In this document: positions 4,656-13,430 of the stretch, one piece after another | Layout: each line of letters starts with the position of its first letter | How positions within the stretch are numbered: the stretch's first letter is position 1 | Origin: a virus | Reading direction: 5' to 3' (one strand) | DNA: 36,029 nt | IMG/VR virus record: IMGVR_UViG_3300049893_003579 | Location: 1-36,029 of that record | Position numbers and translations under genes: made by a program | Notes under the pieces: model-generated | What the model was told of the DNA's origin: nothing | The model's database searches: none | What the model saw: only the letters and a program-made list of their open reading frames with translations

Positions 4656-5269
4656 GGAACCTGAATCTCCTTGATCACGTCGTCGATTGAGTCGCGAATG
4701 TCTCTGCCGGTCACGCCGTCGCCGAGACATGTCCAATCTACCCGGTTTCTGCGCGCGAAGAGCTCCAATTTCTTGCAGTCGGGAAACATCACGTCAAGCT
4801 TGTCCTGCAGCGTCTCGGGCTTCACCGAGTGTCGAACGTTGACGTCGTGGGAGACTGACCTCTGCGAGTGGCTCTTCAGTTTCGGATAGATCGACTTGCC
4901 CGATGTCCCAATGAGAGCGATCTCGTGAGTCTGGCGGAACAATCGACCCATTCCAAAGGCAAGCGCATCGTCGGGATCCTCGCACCTCGACGAGTTCTTC
5001 TTGACCTTGACCCAGACGTACGTCTGTTTCAGCTTGAAGCCCCATGACTTCATGACTGCGAGGCCGTCTTCAAGCATGACCGACGGCACCCACAGCGCCA
5101 AGAGGCAACCTGCAGGATCAGCCAGCTCCCGCACCTTGAGGTCCTTGATTTCTGATAGAGAAAGAGTGGCGTACTGGCTTTGAGCGGACCTCTTGACAGG
5201 TGTCTTCATGGCCTTGAGACCGTCATTGAAATGCCAGGGAGGATCAGCACAAATTACTTGAAACTTCAT
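4652..5269 (-). CDS. MT-A70 family adenine N6-methyltransferase
   Basis: A 205-aa protein of the MT-A70 family, which methylates adenine N6 in DNA or RNA. The hallmark catalytic motif DPPW is at residues 9-12. Other family features follow: L-L-A-L-W-V-P, a G-F-K-L-K-Q-T-Y-V-W-V-K segment, H-S-V-K-P-E (the usual HSxKP) and a C-terminal L-E-L-F-A-R-R box. The whole enzyme is present and short, as is common in phages. It is coupled by ATGA overlaps to thymidylate kinase upstream and to the 97-aa gene downstream. It is likely a DNA-protecting orphan methyltransferase; an RNA substrate cannot be excluded. Confidence 0.92.
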   Translation of the reverse strand: MKFQVICADPPWHFNDGLKAMKTPVKRSAQSQYATLSLSEIKDLKVRELADPAGCLLALWVPSVMLEDGLAVMKSWGFKLKQTYVWVKVKKNSSRCEDPDDALAFGMGRLFRQTHEIALIGTSGKSIYPKLKSHSQRSVSHDVNVRHSVKPETLQDKLDVMFPDCKKLELFARRNRVDWTCLGDGVTGRDIRDSIDDVIKEIQVP

Positions 5270-5865
5270 CCGTAGTAGTCTCCAAGAGCGTGGAAGCAGA
5301 CTGTCTTGTGAACTTCCTCGGGGGTTCCTCCCGAGCGAATGACTGCGATGTGTCCAGGATGTTCGTGTGCGTCAAACTCGAACATGTTCTGGTAGAGAGC
5401 TCTCACCTTTGACTGCAGCTCAGTGTCTTTCTCATAGACGTCTCTGCCCTCCTTGACGTGGGGAGCATTGACCAAGACGACAGTGCAGTCGGGCTTGACA
5501 AGCTGATTGAAGAGCATGTCAGAATACCAGCGAGGAACTCCCTCCGCTTCCCCGTACACCAGACCTGAGAGCGCCCAACGGTCCAGGATGATGTAGTCCA
5601 TCGTGTCCTGCAGGTGGCTCAGCTGAGTCGCCTGAAAAACCCGCTTATTGAGGTACTGGACTGTCTGGAAGACTTTTGGGAATTTCTTGGCGAGGCCATT
5701 CCGCAGCATCGCGTAGATGGCCTTATAAGTGAGGCCATCATTGTAGGGAATCTCGAAGTGTGAGACTTTGTGTCCCTGGGAGAGGAGGTAGTTCTTGAGC
5801 AAGTTGGCCTGTGTAAATTTTCCAACTCTGTCTGGGCCCTCAATTGCAATGATTTTTGCTGTCAA
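5266..5865 (-). CDS. tmk: thymidylate kinase (dTMP kinase)
   Basis: A 199-aa P-loop nucleotide kinase converting dTMP to dTDP. The family signature I-I-A-I-E-G-P-D-R-V-G-K-F-T sits at residues 5-18, with a D-R-W motif (L-D-R-W-A-L-S-G) near the middle. The best start is TTG at 5865, which places the signature at the usual distance from Met; longer in-frame readings only extend into the overlapping endonuclease gene. The gene overlaps the upstream homing endonuclease by 26 nt, so the endonuclease may have inserted right at the original tmk start. With ThyX, dUTPase and RNR it completes a phage dTTP pathway. The P-loop has Phe-Thr where Ser/Thr-Thr is common. Confidence 0.88.
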   Translation of the reverse strand: MTAKIIAIEGPDRVGKFTQANLLKNYLLSQGHKVSHFEIPYNDGLTYKAIYAMLRNGLAKKFPKVFQTVQYLNKRVFQATQLSHLQDTMDYIILDRWALSGLVYGEAEGVPRWYSDMLFNQLVKPDCTVVLVNAPHVKEGRDVYEKDTELQSKVRALYQNMFEFDAHEHPGHIAVIRSGGTPEEVHKTVCFHALGDYYG

Positions 5866-6649
5866 TGTAGTCCAAAGCTCCCTTGTTCCATTCGACTCCG
5901 TCAAGCGCCCTGATCTGCTCAAGGGTGAGCAGGACCAGTTCACGTTCTGTGACAACTTTGAATGTGAAACCCGCTTCTTGGCATGCAAGACGTGCTGCCT
6001 CGAATTTTGCCTGATTCTCTCTCAAGCGAATCATGGCTTCTGGCTTGATCTCGATGATCTCATTTCCTATCTGGAAATCAGGTGTGTAAGTTCTCTCCAC
6101 GCCGTCGAGCAAGTACTTGATGGAGGCGGGCGCTGACACTTCAACTCCCTTCGTGAACATCTCGACGAGAAAGGAGATCTCATAAGAGCTTCGAAATCGA
6201 AGACCCTTGTAGACACCCTGGATCTTCGAGCGTCCTCCCCGCGCGTAGACCTTTCCGTATGCAGGATTTTTATCCCCCACGCATCCCAATTTTGACCTGA
6301 TCAGACAGGCCTTTTCATTGCCGTAGATCTCGTCAATCGTCTTTCCCTTGGTGCGAATTCCAATTCGCGCGCATGATTCAGACGTATGACTCTTGCCGAA
6401 CATCGGATTCTTCTCGCCTGAAGTCACATCAGACACCCGAGCCCGCCATTCTTCGCGTCTCTTCTCTGCCTCTTCTGCGCCCAATTTGGCAACCCACCAC
6501 TCCCATGTCGTCTTATCGTTGAGCGGATTTCGCCGTATGCCATTGGCGTGCTGCCAAGAATTTGAACAGGAGCGATCGCAAAATCGCTTCTTTGACGAAG
6601 CGTAGCGAACCTCAAAATGCTTGCCGCAAAACTCACACGTCTTTTCCAT
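5840..6649 (-). CDS. PD-(D/E)XK homing endonuclease with NUMOD3 motifs
   Basis: A 269-aa free-standing endonuclease. The N terminus has a zinc finger (C5-x2-C8, C24-x3-C28). Two NUMOD3-like DNA-binding repeats follow: G-E-K-N-P-M-F-G-K-S near 78-87 and G-D-K-N-P-A-Y-G-K near 125-133. The C-terminal half has a PD-(D/E)XK nuclease core: Y-E at 156-157, P190-D191, and E200-I-K202. These are the parts of phage homing endonucleases that cut an intron-less or gene-less allele. It lies between thyX and tmk and overlaps the tmk start by 26 nt, which fits insertion into a nucleotide-metabolism operon. The ATG at 6649 lacks a strong Shine-Dalgarno. Confidence 0.85.
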   Translation of the reverse strand: MEKTCEFCGKHFEVRYASSKKRFCDRSCSNSWQHANGIRRNPLNDKTTWEWWVAKLGAEEAEKRREEWRARVSDVTSGEKNPMFGKSHTSESCARIGIRTKGKTIDEIYGNEKACLIRSKLGCVGDKNPAYGKVYARGGRSKIQGVYKGLRFRSSYEISFLVEMFTKGVEVSAPASIKYLLDGVERTYTPDFQIGNEIIEIKPEAMIRLRENQAKFEAARLACQEAGFTFKVVTERELVLLTLEQIRALDGVEWNKGALDYIDSKNHCN

Positions 6650-6696
6650 GAGCTTACGTATTCACATTCGAAGGTTCTGACCGTGTCATCTTCAGA

Positions 6697-7725
6697 TCAC
6701 TTCTTGACTCCCATCAGGTCCCACTCGTATGGAATTTCAGCACGATGTTGGATCCATCCGTTGAAATTGTTGCAGAAGTAAGTTCGCTCCACACGAGCTA
6801 CAGGATCAGCTACGATGAGATCGTTCCAAGTCCGCGGTGCAACGGCGCTCGGGCCTCCCTTGAGCTCACAGTAGAGCTGGCTCGGAAGCCTGACGTTGTT
6901 CCACGCCCGACCGCTCTTGAGGAAGACACGATCGCGTCGATAGCACTCAAGCTCAAGCTCAGTCATGGGACGAGCCACATGCTCAAAGGGACTCATGTGC
7001 CCAGCTTCGAGGAGACGATCGGCGAGTTGCACATCGGCATCGAGGTCCCTCTTGCCATCGTGGGTCAAGTAGCTCACCCGGGCGCAGCGGCCGACTGACA
7101 CTTTCTTGAGGAAATCGTAGATGCTCGTCTGCGCGACCTCACATTTTAGCTCAGCATCGTAGTAGTCTTCTTCGCGGATGAGGGGAAGATGCCATTGACT
7201 GTGGGTAAGATGCTGAGGCGTGGACTTTGACATCGCCTCGACCATCAGGTGAGCGATCTTTTGGATCTCTGGATGGGCCATCTCGTTGTCACGTAGATGG
7301 GTCCAGTTATCCCACTCTGTGGAAGTCACGATGACCGTATGCCACATGAAAGGCTCAAGGAGCCTGTTTGTGATCTGCTTGTGGATGCCAATCGCAAGGA
7401 GTTGATCGGCCTTTTCGACAGCAGCATTCCGAGCCTCCAGCCACTCAGTTTCTGCCCAAGCCTGTCGTCTCGGATCGACTTCCTCTTCTGCCTGCATTCC
7501 CTTCTGATTCTGACCCCAATGGGTCGGAATGTAGGGAAACTCCTTCACCATCTTCAACATCTTCTCCACCGGAATTGCTCGTGAAGATGCTGAGTTGCGT
7601 GAAAACACGCGGTGCGTGTTGAACTCTGCAAGGATGATTCGTGGAAATGTTACCTCGAGAGTCGTGAGCCGAGCTCCCTCGGGACTCATGCTGTCAGCGA
7701 GGATCTTCGCATTATGGCCTGTCAT
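6697..7725 (-). CDS. thyX: flavin-dependent thymidylate synthase ThyX
   Basis: A 342-aa ThyX enzyme, which makes dTMP from dUMP using FAD, NADPH and methylene-folate. The ThyX signature is seen at residues 37-50 as T-H-R-V-F-S-R-N-S-A-S-S-R-A, keeping H38, R39, S42, N44, S47 and R49 of the usual RHRxxSxNxxSxR pattern. The protein is longer than the 220-250 aa of typical bacterial ThyX, as in several phage forms. ATG 7725 is taken as start; a GTG at 7734 is an alternative, and neither has a good Shine-Dalgarno. It is followed 47 nt later by the homing endonuclease and then tmk, so dTMP synthesis and phosphorylation are neighbours. Confidence 0.93.
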   Translation of the reverse strand: MTGHNAKILADSMSPEGARLTTLEVTFPRIILAEFNTHRVFSRNSASSRAIPVEKMLKMVKEFPYIPTHWGQNQKGMQAEEEVDPRRQAWAETEWLEARNAAVEKADQLLAIGIHKQITNRLLEPFMWHTVIVTSTEWDNWTHLRDNEMAHPEIQKIAHLMVEAMSKSTPQHLTHSQWHLPLIREEDYYDAELKCEVAQTSIYDFLKKVSVGRCARVSYLTHDGKRDLDADVQLADRLLEAGHMSPFEHVARPMTELELECYRRDRVFLKSGRAWNNVRLPSQLYCELKGGPSAVAPRTWNDLIVADPVARVERTYFCNNFNGWIQHRAEIPYEWDLMGVKK

Positions 7726-10404: not shown

Positions 10405-11175
10405 TTACAAGGTCCTGAGTCGATTCACCATGTCAGAGAAGATCTTGGGATCACTCTCGACGACAAGAAACTTTCGGCCCAGCTTTCGGGCCGCGAGCGC
10501 AGTAGTCCCGCATCCTGCAAAGGGATCCGCCACCCACTCTCCCGGGTTCGTGTGGACCTCAATCATCACCTCGTGAAGACGCTGCTGCTTCTGGGTAGGG
10601 TGCACCTTGCCTCTGAAAATCTCTGTAATATCGGACCATATGTTGGACCGGCGGTAATTTTCCGATTTTGCTGGGTACTTTTCGTTGAATCCTGCGTACC
10701 CTCTCTTGGCCTCGAGGTAGGGCACATGGAAGGTCCGCGGCTTCTTAGCAGAGCCTTTGACGAAGTAAGCGCACTCCTCACGAGTGAACAAGTAGTTGTT
10801 CTGGACGCCGTATGCGCGCTTCTTTGACCACGTGATCAGGTTTGCGAGCTCGAGATGGCTGGCCTCTTCGACCATGGGAACGTACTTCATGAAGGGCCGA
10901 AATCCGGGCTTGCCGATTCCACCCCACACGTAGAATGCTCCGCCGGACGCAAGAATATGCTCGGTCCAGCGTTTGGTCCAATCCAACATCCATCGAGCAA
11001 AGTCGGTATCAGCTCCGCCGTAGCGGTCCCACTTCTCTTCAACGACATTGCCGTAGGGAGGATCAGCAATGATAAGCGGAACCTCTGGGAGCATCTGCCG
11101 GACGCAGATGATCGTTCCCGGTTCTGTGCTGTCGGCCTGAATAGCGTAGCCGTCGGAGAACTTCTCAATGTTCAT
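10405..11175 (-). CDS. DNA methyltransferase (DPPY type)
   Basis: A 256-aa SAM-dependent DNA amino-methyltransferase. Catalytic motif IV, A-D-P-P-Y-G-N, is at about residues 37-43, and the SAM-binding D-P-F-A-G-C-G-T-T box lies near 214-222, again with IV before I. H-P-T-Q-K-Q between them matches the conserved HPTxKP region. The central segment probably contains the recognition domain. It shares the fold but little sequence with the methyltransferase at 568-1371. It overlaps the 84-aa gene upstream by ATGA. No cognate nuclease is present. The target is unknown; adenine N6 or cytosine N4 are both possible. Confidence 0.93.
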   Translation of the reverse strand: MNIEKFSDGYAIQADSTEPGTIICVRQMLPEVPLIIADPPYGNVVEEKWDRYGGADTDFARWMLDWTKRWTEHILASGGAFYVWGGIGKPGFRPFMKYVPMVEEASHLELANLITWSKKRAYGVQNNYLFTREECAYFVKGSAKKPRTFHVPYLEAKRGYAGFNEKYPAKSENYRRSNIWSDITEIFRGKVHPTQKQQRLHEVMIEVHTNPGEWVADPFAGCGTTALAARKLGRKFLVVESDPKIFSDMVNRLRTL

Positions 11176-11447: not shown

Positions 11448-11478
11448 GGACCCCCGGGTGTATCCTACCCAGGGGCCC
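11448..11478 (-). ncRNA. 12-bp minihelix with 7-nt loop and ACCA tail
   Basis: On the minus strand GGGCCCCTGGGT pairs with ACCCGGGGGTCC over 12 bp (two G-U pairs) around the loop AGGATAC, and the stem is followed directly by ACCA (11447-11444). Twelve pairs plus a seven-base loop and a discriminator-CCA is the geometry of a tRNA acceptor-T arm, although the loop lacks the T-loop consensus TTCRA. No U run follows, so a simple terminator is unlikely. It is 13 nt upstream of the next gene's Shine-Dalgarno, where it could be a processing signal or tRNA mimic. Confidence 0.5.
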
Positions 11479-11552
11479 GGTTGTAATCAGCTTGGGAGCT
11501 GCTGACTGCGTCTTCTTTCGAGGGAGCTACACGTTTAATCTGAAGCGTCAGT

Positions 11553-11699
11553 CCTTAGACTCACCCGTTCTGCCGCTAAACTACCGGACCGTAAGACCCG
11601 TTCGAGACTCGCATGCTTTGTCTCTGGTGGGTAAGCCCATGCGCCACCGTTTAAATCCGGCGCAGAGGTCCAGGCTGGACTTGAACCAGCGTTGATGAG
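11553..11699 (-). tRNA. permuted tRNA-like gene 2 (3' half precedes 5' half)
   Basis: Transcribed first is the 3' half (11699-11666): CTCATC, three bases, T stem GCTGG/CCAGC with the canonical loop TTCAAGT, then CTGGACC and a discriminator U, with no encoded CCA. After 75 nt of structured spacer (11665-11591) comes the 5' half (11590-11553): GGTCCGG, T8-A9, D stem GTTT/GAAC, D loop AGCGGCA with A14 and G18-G19, then GGTGA. The acceptor strands pair 7/7 (one G-U). GGTGA pairs with TCATC as an anticodon stem, so both halves fit one tRNA of about 71 nt. If the join falls at positions 35-37 the loop reads GTCTAAC, anticodon CUA; other joins give other anticodons, so identity is unassigned. The order is directly visible; function is inferred. 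Confidence 0.68.
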
Positions 11700-11784
11700 T
11701 TGTTTCAGCACTTCAGAGGTTGATTAGCTCTTGCCTCCCGCGGTCATTGGATAAACCTGTTGCGATAGCTTCAGGTTGATGTGT

Positions 11785-11930
11785 CACTTAGCGTCTGCCA
11801 TTCCGCCACTCTCCCAAGCTTACCGAGATATTAGACCCTCGTCGGCTGGGTTCTCGAACAATGCCTTGATCGATAGTGGGAGAGCCAGGACTCGAACCTG
11901 GATGAGTTACCTCTCGCGACGATTGTAAGC
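11785..11930 (-). tRNA. permuted tRNA-like gene 1, tRNA-Leu-like (3' half precedes 5' half)
   Basis: The 3' half (about 11930-11877) has T stem CCAGG/CCTGG with loop TTCGAGT (11901-11885), acceptor strand CTCTCCC (11884-11878) and discriminator A, followed by CTA rather than CCA. After a 61-nt spacer (11876-11816) comes the 5' half (11815-11785): GGGAGAG, T8-G9, D arm GCG/CGC with loop GAATGGCAGA, then TAAGT. Acceptor pairing is a perfect 7/7. The D arm and discriminator A resemble bacterial tRNA-Leu, and a long 24-nt segment before the T arm would be a type II variable arm. TAAGT can pair with GCTTA (11930-11926), but no candidate join gives a normal T33 or a Leu anticodon, so the anticodon loop is unresolved and this copy may be degenerate. 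Confidence 0.6.
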
Positions 11931-11956
11931 TTAAGGCTGAGCCTCAGCTTGCGCTA

Positions 11957-11977
11957 TCCCGGGACGATAGCCCGGGA
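11957..11977 (-). repeat. 7-bp hairpin at the head of the tRNA-like locus
   Basis: TCCCGGG-CTATCGT-CCCGGGA on the minus strand forms a very stable GC stem with a seven-base loop, 18 nt after the stop of the 245-aa gene. No U run follows. Its downstream flank (GATAGC, 11958-11953) can instead pair with GCTATC at 11769-11764 after the 5' half of permuted tRNA 1, so it may be one of two alternative structures. Confidence 0.5.
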
Positions 11978-11995: not shown

Positions 11996-12733
11996 TCAGC
12001 CGAACAAGAAATTGAACACCTTTCCGCCGACCTTCTGCTGTTCGACCTCGCGGGAGTTGGCTTCCTCACGCGCGAACTTGACAGCCTTCTGAAGGCGCTC
12101 GACTCGGTCCAGGATCTCAGCGACGCGAGACGCCGGGAGAGCACCCGAGAACTTGACGGTCTTCCAGAAGCCAGCGATCTGGTCCTCGAATCCCTCCTTG
12201 ACCTGGGCAGGGTGCTTGTCCGTCGCCGGAGCAAGAACGAGGGGCACGAACACCTTCTTCGACCGCGTGGTCTCCGCGGGCTTCGAAGCGTAGCAGCCCA
12301 CGTTCGGGTCGAGGGTCCACTCCTCAGAGGGGTCCAGGGTGGGGATCTTGCTGACGAAGGTATGGATGTCCACCAACTTCTTCTCGAGGAAGAGGAGGTA
12401 GGTCACCGGGACCTTCGTGGCAATGGTGACATCGCCCACAACCACGTCCGCCGTAGCGACGCAGTTGGCGTAGTCCTTCGTCGCAGTGACGTCGAAGAGG
12501 TCCGTCATGACCCGCGCGACGTCCTTCAGGAAGTCGCCTGCGTTGAGCTGCACCTTCGTGGCTTCCGGGGGAAGCTGCTCGCCGCCGTCCTCCTTGGGAC
12601 GATAGGTGCGAGAGATGCCCGTGATCAGAGCGGGCTTCTGCATCTTCTGATAGATCTCCGTGATGCCCGCGTGGGCCTTGTTCTTCACGGACTTCTCGAC
12701 AGCGATCACTTGACACAATTTTGTGCTGCTCAT
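11996..12733 (-). CDS. conserved protein of unknown function (DUF7873-like)
   Basis: A 245-aa protein. The N-terminal run (M-S-S-T-K-L-C-Q-V-I-A-V-E-K), the middle Y-R-P-K-E-D-G-G-E-Q-L-P-P-E and the terminal V-G-G-K-V-F-N-F-L-F resemble an uncharacterised family I recall from bacteria and phages (annotated DUF7873); I could not check this. Codon use is unusually regular and GC-rich (many AAG, GTC, ATC), suggesting high expression. No catalytic motif or signal peptide is seen. The ATG at 12733 is separated from the GIY-YIG stop by one base. The permuted tRNA-like locus follows immediately after its stop. Confidence 0.75.
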   Translation of the reverse strand: MSSTKLCQVIAVEKSVKNKAHAGITEIYQKMQKPALITGISRTYRPKEDGGEQLPPEATKVQLNAGDFLKDVARVMTDLFDVTATKDYANCVATADVVVGDVTIATKVPVTYLLFLEKKLVDIHTFVSKIPTLDPSEEWTLDPNVGCYASKPAETTRSKKVFVPLVLAPATDKHPAQVKEGFEDQIAGFWKTVKFSGALPASRVAEILDRVERLQKAVKFAREEANSREVEQQKVGGKVFNFLFG

Positions 12734-12734
12734 A

Positions 12735-13430
12735 TCATTTTCCCAAAGTCTGAGTTTCTTCTTGTTGAAATGACTCTAACTCATCTGAGACCAACTTTAC
12801 AAGTTCACGTTTCTGCTTCCAGTACTTGAGGAGTCTTTGACGATGAACTTCTCTGCCTTCTTCAGACATGGGTTTTCGTTTTACGCCAATCGCTGATTTG
12901 CGCTTCAATCCTAGTTCTCTGCGCTCGATCGCTCTCTTGGAGATGTTTTGACCCACTGACGGATCTCTCTTGACTCCCAAATTTGCTTCTCTAATGCGCC
13001 GAATTCCATCCTCAGACTTGGGAGGCGATGGAATCTTTCGCGCTTTACGAGTTTCGCTAATCTTTCGTCTCGTCTCTTCAGACTGAACGCGTCCCATAGC
13101 TGATCGTCTCTTCTTTTCACGCGTCTCATCACTTGGTGAAAAAGATCCTTCGCCGCCTTCGTTCATATTGTAACCTACGAGATGTGTACGCCATTCAAGA
13201 ACAAGTGAATGTTCTGCACTGAATGCGTCAGCTTCAGACTCATGCTCGGAGATGATAGTCATCTCAAACTTGTCAGGGCCATATTTCCTGATAGCTCTGT
13301 AGAGACGAGTCTCGTCTCCTCGTTCAGCGGCATAAAGATGAGCTCCAAACCGTTGTTTGGGATCGTTAGATTTTCCAACGTATCGTTTTCCATTGATAGT
13401 GTTGGTGATGCAATAGACAAATGATTTCAT
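12735..13430 (-). CDS. GIY-YIG homing endonuclease
   Basis: A 231-aa free-standing homing endonuclease of the GIY-YIG type, like the Seg proteins of T4. The nuclease domain occupies residues 1-95: V5-Y-C-I then R16-Y-V-G-K (the GIY and YIG equivalents), R27 in the following helix, a candidate catalytic Glu in A-E-H-S-L-V near 73, and G-Y-N-M-N-E-G-G-E-G at 86-95. The rest is basic with NUMOD3-like repeats (S-E-E-T-R-R-K-I-S-E-T). It sits between the RNR gene and the 245-aa gene and has its own sigma70-like promoter. Codon use is more A/T-rich than its neighbours, fitting recent acquisition. Confidence 0.9.
   Translation of the reverse strand: MKSFVYCITNTINGKRYVGKSNDPKQRFGAHLYAAERGDETRLYRAIRKYGPDKFEMTIISEHESEADAFSAEHSLVLEWRTHLVGYNMNEGGEGSFSPSDETREKKRRSAMGRVQSEETRRKISETRKARKIPSPPKSEDGIRRIREANLGVKRDPSVGQNISKRAIERRELGLKRKSAIGVKRKPMSEEGREVHRQRLLKYWKQKRELVKLVSDELESFQQEETQTLGK

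Follow-up and report, generated by a model that had tools for sequence, protein, structure and literature searches.

Why would a phage genome encode, one behind the other, two sets of tRNA halves in permuted order, and to what kind of RNA do these halves belong? The locus that raises this question lies in the window, that is, the whole 36,029-nucleotide stretch of viral DNA analysed here, in which a sequence-only reading had assigned positions 11553-11930 to two tandem circularly permuted tRNA genes. Direct reading of the minus strand, on which all features described here lie, confirms every named element of both units, namely, the permuted acceptor pairing, the T loops and the D arms, arranged twice in the order T arm and 3′ acceptor strand, spacer, 5′ acceptor strand and D arm; we refer to each such unit as a tRNA-like domain (TLD). 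In TLD1, the T arm CCAGG-TTCGAGT-CCTGG (11901..11885) is followed by the 3′ acceptor strand CTCTCCC (jointly 11878..11901 in a scan for the permuted layout), a 62-nt spacer that starts with ACTA (11816..11877; position 73 onwards, CCA not encoded) and the 5′ acceptor strand GGGAGAG (11815..11809) with its D arm (jointly 11791..11815); judging by this D arm, GCGGAATGGCAGACGC, we take the 5′ half to be Leu-like. In TLD2, the same scan places the T arm GCTGG-TTCAAGT-CCAGC (11690..11674) with the 3′ acceptor strand CTGGACC at 11667..11690 and, beyond a 76-nt spacer that starts with TCTG (11591..11666), the 5′ acceptor strand GGTCCGG (11590..11584) with its D arm at 11566..11590. Both acceptor helices are complete (7/7) in permuted order, with a single G-U pair in TLD2; read in normal order, they leave the three mismatches originally pointed out. 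The window spacers are unusually long, and no CCA is encoded here. Neither ARAGORN nor the Rfam tRNA model RF00005 detects a tRNA anywhere in the window, and the sole DNA similarity to a cultured phage is a 26-nt match of the TLD1 5′ half to a stretch of Bacillus phage Eldridge that carries no annotation.

The two units occupy the centre of a longer element, so that the coordinates first given hold for its middle and not for its ends: the conserved RNA extends over about 11977-11452. Its constant upstream neighbour, as synteny shows, is a gene for a 245-aa DUF7873 protein (11996..12733; Pfam PF25283, E 7.9e-104). Between the stop codon of this gene and the RNA repeats lies a hairpin (11957..11977), seen in the sequence, the paired form of which is apparent by eye in a second locus (L001) too. 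It is followed by hexamer repeats of the form ARNYTN, denoted X1 (11926..11950), and by the 3′ side of TLD1, which combines the connecting stem strand GTCGC (11920..11916) with a variable-arm hairpin (jointly 11902..11920). Downstream of the TLD1 D arm come the 5′ strand of connecting stem 1, GTGAC (11783..11787), the Y1 region of YUNARN repeats with a conserved UAUCGC (11756..11781), the 5′ side of a core, consisting of the P5 strand GAGCT, the AATCAACC loop and the P6 strand TCTGAAG (11711..11730), and the 3′ strand of connecting stem 2, ACTCATC (11694..11700). TLD2 is followed, in turn, by the 5′ strand of connecting stem 2, GGTGAGT, with the Y2 YUNARN repeats (11547..11565), the 3′ side of the core, with the P6 strand CTTCAGA, the TTAAACG loop and the P5 strand AGCTC (11524..11545), and a 3′ hairpin with a conserved GGATA loop (11452..11475). 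Thermodynamic folding of the window alone barely beats shuffles (z -2.0) and does not itself show the structure. Judged by comparison across loci, the element is a structured non-coding RNA, roughly 0.5 kb long in the window, that is encoded together with the DUF7873 protein.

Relatives of the locus were gathered through the DUF7873 protein. The permuted-layout scan returned 140 matches spread over 78 loci, compared with 1 in shuffled DNA, most of them immediately behind DUF7873 (median of 91 nt from the stop codon to the first T stem) and mainly in tandem pairs (median of 161 nt between T stems). Among the 114 DUF7873 loci with room, the strict scan found two permuted units in 84 and one in 16. 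A covariance model of the RNA picks up most of the loci that the strict scan missed, the exceptions among the 14 strict-scan negatives being judged by eye; a full model match is absent at two DUF7873 loci (L109 and L110), and three others (L158, L163 and L171) have weak or partial matches only. Because the scan itself selects paired acceptors, we also ran an unselected test on 207 T arms located within 450 nt downstream of DUF7873, 171 of which have a permuted 7/7 partner, compared with 7.0 expected once the acceptor letters are shuffled. Of 65 arrays, 1 pairs 7/7 in normal order. Each unit is represented by about 50 different acceptor helices, and acceptor pairing, far from being lost in the homologues, is maintained by compensatory changes. 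Thus, by sequence comparison, a chance origin of the permuted layout is excluded, and the permuted pairing, being conserved with compensatory changes in relatives, reflects neither an assembly error nor a single rearrangement, in agreement with the original view that the tandem circular permutation is real.

The RNA can also be retrieved with no protein input. A pattern of RNA letters only (D arm 2, then ATTAAACG) returned 15 viral stretches, 14 of which encode DUF7873, the 15th (L186) starting inside the array. The loci come from independent metagenomes and from cultured phages, and the carriers are phages of Gordonia, Rhodococcus, Arthrobacter, Klebsiella, Vibrio, Rhizobium and cyanobacteria; in the cultured phages, the RNA stretch is unannotated and adjoins a hypothetical protein. 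Cultured carriers include Rhodococcus phage NiceHouse, Gordonia phage Phendrix and Arthrobacter phage Mimi. Divergent versions are present in Klebsiella jumbo phage KpLz-2_45, Vibrio phage D505 and Rhizobium phage RHph_TM2_3B (L197, L198 and L199, respectively). The initial description of the feature as belonging to a phage stands for many phages, but the RNA also occurs in bacterial genomes and is therefore not exclusively a phage feature. Indeed, among bacterial and archaeal genomes, the RNA-letter pattern found five Acidobacteria contigs with both the RNA and DUF7873, whereas the four remaining matches lack DUF7873 as well as any significant match to the model. Two of the Acidobacteria contigs have neighbours of bacterial rather than phage appearance (radical SAM, amidohydrolase and pilin-type), with one weak tail-protein match. 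In eight bacterial genomes with DUF7873, the sole strong full-length model match genome-wide adjoins DUF7873 (109-132 bits), the remaining matches scoring at most 47 bits and, with few exceptions, covering just the tRNA-like part. The occurrence of the locus in bacteria is sporadic, with 2 of 297 genomes in a phylum sample and 7 of 119 in a family sample. Bacterial genomes with DUF7873 and the RNA include L190, L192, L200, L202, L203 and L207, Acidobacteria (Pyrinomonadaceae) contigs among them, and DUF7873 is present in the control genome of Deinobacterium chartae.

Of the 44 consensus pairs in an alignment of 42 full arrays, 42 show compensatory double changes. For TLD2 plus the core (32 sequences), double changes are found in 37 of 38 pairs, 88.7% of cells are paired, compared with 55.4% in shuffled and 34-48% in slid alignments, and the covariation score is 0.886 versus 0.251. 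The covarying helices are the acceptor, T and D stems, the connecting stem and the core helices P5 and P6; P5, P6 and the connecting stems played no part in locus selection. The connecting stem occupies the place of the anticodon stem and leads to the core, where P5 and P6 enclose the conserved loop AUCRA / UUAAACG (AUUAAACG). The elbow residues T8, A14, G18G19 and TUCRA are invariant or nearly so. In 45 of 63 arrays (1% in shuffles), the X1 hexamer repeat matches 14 or more of the 16 constrained positions, and the 3′ hairpin, with a GG(A/C)UA loop, is found in 47 of 63 arrays, against 1.2 in shuffles and 1 of 62 control regions. A covariance model scan of related loci, the check initially proposed, bears this out: the model of TLD2 plus core (R1), built without the window, matched it in full at 11745-11509 (69.7 bits, E 5.3e-14) and found nothing, at E up to 1, in 644 kb of phage DNA that had been collected by way of ribonucleotide reductase. 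The two units, which had been taken for separate tRNA genes, are, by this covariation, parts of one structured RNA with further conserved helices, tied to DUF7873. A duplex between X1 and Y1 was also considered: same-locus pairing beats cross-locus pairing (z -5.2), but this score includes the connecting stem, and with no strong column covariation in X1 and Y1 the duplex was rejected.

The ends of the two domains resemble those of tRNAs. Position 73 is followed by an encoded CCA in 46 of 108 units and by C74 in 92 of 108, and U occupies position -1 in 69 of 108, close to the share in ordinary tRNAs from these loci (123 of 214); the encoding of CCA by the arrays is uncorrelated with that by ordinary tRNAs in the same locus (rho 0.16, p 0.52). 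In one phage (L163), a complete ordinary tRNA-Thr (4862-4934) lies within spacer 1 of a permuted unit, in parallel to the tRNA-Ala found inside a permuted tmRNA spacer (PMC11915505). With encoded CCA, U at -1 and a tRNA within a spacer, the acceptor ends look processed. Across arrays, spacers range from 5 to 89 nt, and the spacers of 5-8 nt that occur in many arrays may be poor substrates for RNase P and tRNase Z.

The middle of the presumptive tRNAs tells a different story from their ends. BHB motifs at the outer junction are at background level (6 and 4 of 78, compared with 3.2 and 3.1 in shuffled sequences). Many Leu-type TLD1s have, in place of the anticodon arm, a mini-hairpin with a four-base loop (GAAA, GTAA, GAAG, CTTG or TGCG) or an 8-nt loop, and no consistent U33-anticodon or complete anticodon loop would result from joining across the arrays. 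TLD2 often shows, after a 6-7 bp stem, the sequence (C)U-NAR-N, anticodon-loop-like to the eye, which, if it were an anticodon loop, would read Leu/Phe codons. Leu and Phe synthetases need A73. The discriminator is mostly A in TLD1 but U or G in TLD2, and this mismatch counts against decoding. The idea of BHB-type joining into decoding tRNAs, which accompanied the sequence-only reading, is thus at odds with the junctions, the TLD1 loops and the TLD2 discriminator, and a pair of decoding permuted tRNAs is probably not what the array encodes.

Sequence comparison thus brings together a conserved architecture, covariation, a near-constant partnership with DUF7873, no BHB enrichment and no consistent anticodon. 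We propose, with a probability of about 60%, that the locus encodes one RNA with two tRNA-like heads that would be cut, like permuted tmRNA, into base-paired pieces and would act with DUF7873 as a tRNA-mimic ribonucleoprotein. Each head comprises a T arm, an acceptor helix closed by the spacer loop and a D arm, with the connecting stem into the P5/P6 core and the YUNARN hexamer repeats in the place of the anticodon arm. By analogy with the logic of permuted tmRNA genes, here applied to two heads, the tRNA end-processing enzymes (RNase P, tRNase Z and the CCA enzyme) would excise both spacers, leaving three RNA pieces with two CCA ends, which the acceptor, connecting and core helices would hold together. 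DUF7873 would bind this RNA, possibly along the hexamer repeats; a repeat of 6 nt could reflect repeated protein contacts. The particle could then engage the tRNA-binding machinery, be it maturation enzymes, synthetases, EF-Tu, the ribosome or tRNA-attacking defences, as a mimic and not as decoding tRNAs. Given that the tRNA elbows and ends are intact and there is no usable anticodon, a tRNA-mimic function is probable. More tentatively, and with less than even confidence, the locus might represent a new class of RNA-protein machine of phages and some bacteria, in which a three-piece RNA with two aminoacylatable heads on a common core carries DUF7873 along its hexamer repeats and serves as a double tRNA mimic in translation or tRNA surveillance.

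The protein itself has a confidently predicted structure (AlphaFold pLDDT 91) with no significant relative in PDB or BFVD searches, so that its candidate RNA binding is suggested by synteny and not by its fold. The best PDB matches in Foldseek are Cas7 chains of Cascade, but with E about 5e-3 and a TM-score of 0.12 they are treated as noise; Cas7 binds RNA in 6-nt steps, which is suggestive beside a 6-nt RNA repeat, though the TM-score is too low to count.

Several other scenarios have to be weighed against this one. The two units could be genuine permuted pre-tRNAs, whose outer ends some ligase or ribozyme would join while RNase P and tRNase Z cut out the spacer, yielding two decoding tRNAs. 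The completeness of the acceptor, T and D arms in permuted order, the CCA-like ends, the anticodon-loop-like sequence of TLD2 and the RNA ligases encoded by 12 of 27 large relatives fit this scenario, but, with RtcB in only 2 of the 27, no phage ligase is a universal, fixed partner. In addition to the background level of BHB, the tetraloop mini-hairpins of many TLD1s and the TLD2 discriminator ill-suited to Leu/Phe, YUNAR recurs as repeats in X1 and Y1, and the conservation of the P5/P6 core and the strict tandem pairing would be left unexplained; we therefore regard decoding as unlikely. A similarly low probability attaches to a scaffold resembling Y RNA, with the acceptor loops staying closed, the RNA unprocessed and its tRNA-like modules recruiting or blocking tRNA-binding proteins around DUF7873. 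The closed acceptor topology and the many spacers of 5-8 nt are compatible with such a scaffold, as is the precedent of a bacterial Y RNA that carries a tRNA-like domain and has been proposed to inhibit a tRNA nuclease competitively (PMC7790460). Cutting is nevertheless suggested by the encoded CCA, the frequency of which far exceeds chance, by U at -1 and by the whole tRNA in one spacer, and the neighbour is DUF7873 rather than a Ro/TROVE protein.

A derivative of tmRNA, tagging proteins on stalled ribosomes and using the X1/Y1 triplets as a short (KLKL-like) reading frame, appears far less probable still. Permuted tmRNA has the same gene logic, and X1 reads by eye as alternating Lys/Arg and Leu/Phe triplets, but the Rfam tmRNA and tmRNA_permuted models have no match in the window, D stems are present and no conserved start or stop was seen for the X1/Y1 triplets; furthermore, a (permuted) tmRNA is encoded separately in phages L117 and Phendrix. 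Since the X1 codons retain their A-R and Y-T letters even in GC-rich genomes, we read X1 as more probably an RNA motif than a coding peptide KLKLKL. Phage tRNA arrays are unstable in general, which could favour rearranged or decaying tRNA genes, chance pairing or assembly error, but we assign practically no weight to any of these: they are refuted by the covariation, with about 50 different sequences per unit in which the acceptors are compensated, and by the unselected acceptor test, and the layout is shared by independent metagenomes and cultured phages. Ordinary or decayed tRNAs were likewise rejected, with none found by ARAGORN or Rfam and decay excluded by the conservation, as was a split group I intron (a natural permuted intron-exon arrangement), for which the flanks are too short and Rfam has no match.

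Among known systems, permuted tmRNA (Rfam RF04321, tmRNA_permuted; RF01849-RF01851) shares a circularly permuted tRNA-like domain, and its spacer is removed by tRNA-processing enzymes, leaving pieces held by base pairing; a single case with an ordinary tRNA gene in that spacer has been reported (PMC11915505). By contrast, the DUF7873 RNA has two such domains, D stems, a different core and no Rfam match, and its neighbour is DUF7873 instead of SmpB. The two occur side by side in L117, where tmRNA_permuted matches at 6537-6834 and the array at 4774-5050 of the same stretch is unmatched; a tmRNA match is also present in Gordonia phage Phendrix (L167, 2069-2597). The permuted tRNA genes of red and green algae and archaea have the same order of 3′ half, spacer and 5′ half, with pairing acceptors and spacers of 1 to 74 nt (PMC3978253), but the DUF7873 RNA lacks BHB enrichment and a consistent anticodon loop and consists of a fixed pair of units within a larger conserved RNA with a protein neighbour. 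The bacterial Y RNA YrlA, which partners with Ro/Rsr, is likewise a non-coding RNA with a tRNA-like domain that is encoded with a protein (PMC7790460). The DUF7873 RNA differs from it in having no Ro protein, two full 7-bp acceptors, CCA-like ends, the P5/P6 core and no Rfam match. The topology of T arm, closed acceptor and D arm in the array may be similar to that of the YrlA module. GOLLD, ROOL and similar RNAs are large structured phage RNAs, some of which lie near or with tRNAs; apart from being a large structured RNA in phages, the DUF7873 RNA differs in its architecture, its link to DUF7873 and its lack of an Rfam match. In the open-access literature, we found no description of a double tRNA-like RNA, nor is there one in Rfam, and this RNA beside DUF7873 is apparently an undescribed structured RNA.

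These findings add to phages, including cultured ones, a conserved structured RNA of unusual double tRNA-like architecture, and provide DUF7873, so far of no known role, with a candidate RNA partner. They also show that permuted tmRNA is not the only circularly permuted tRNA-like gene of bacteria and their phages, and open a way into how phages may imitate tRNA, whether to reach host translation or to evade tRNA-attacking defences. In the window, a homing endonuclease gene, of the GIY-YIG type according to one PHROG, lies directly upstream of DUF7873 (12735-13430, minus strand), and a gene for a Type II-like DNA methyltransferase lies downstream (10405-11175, minus strand). In two other loci (L140 and L141, about 4950-5350), an unusual insertion follows the T arm of TLD1 and is possibly an intron or another element.
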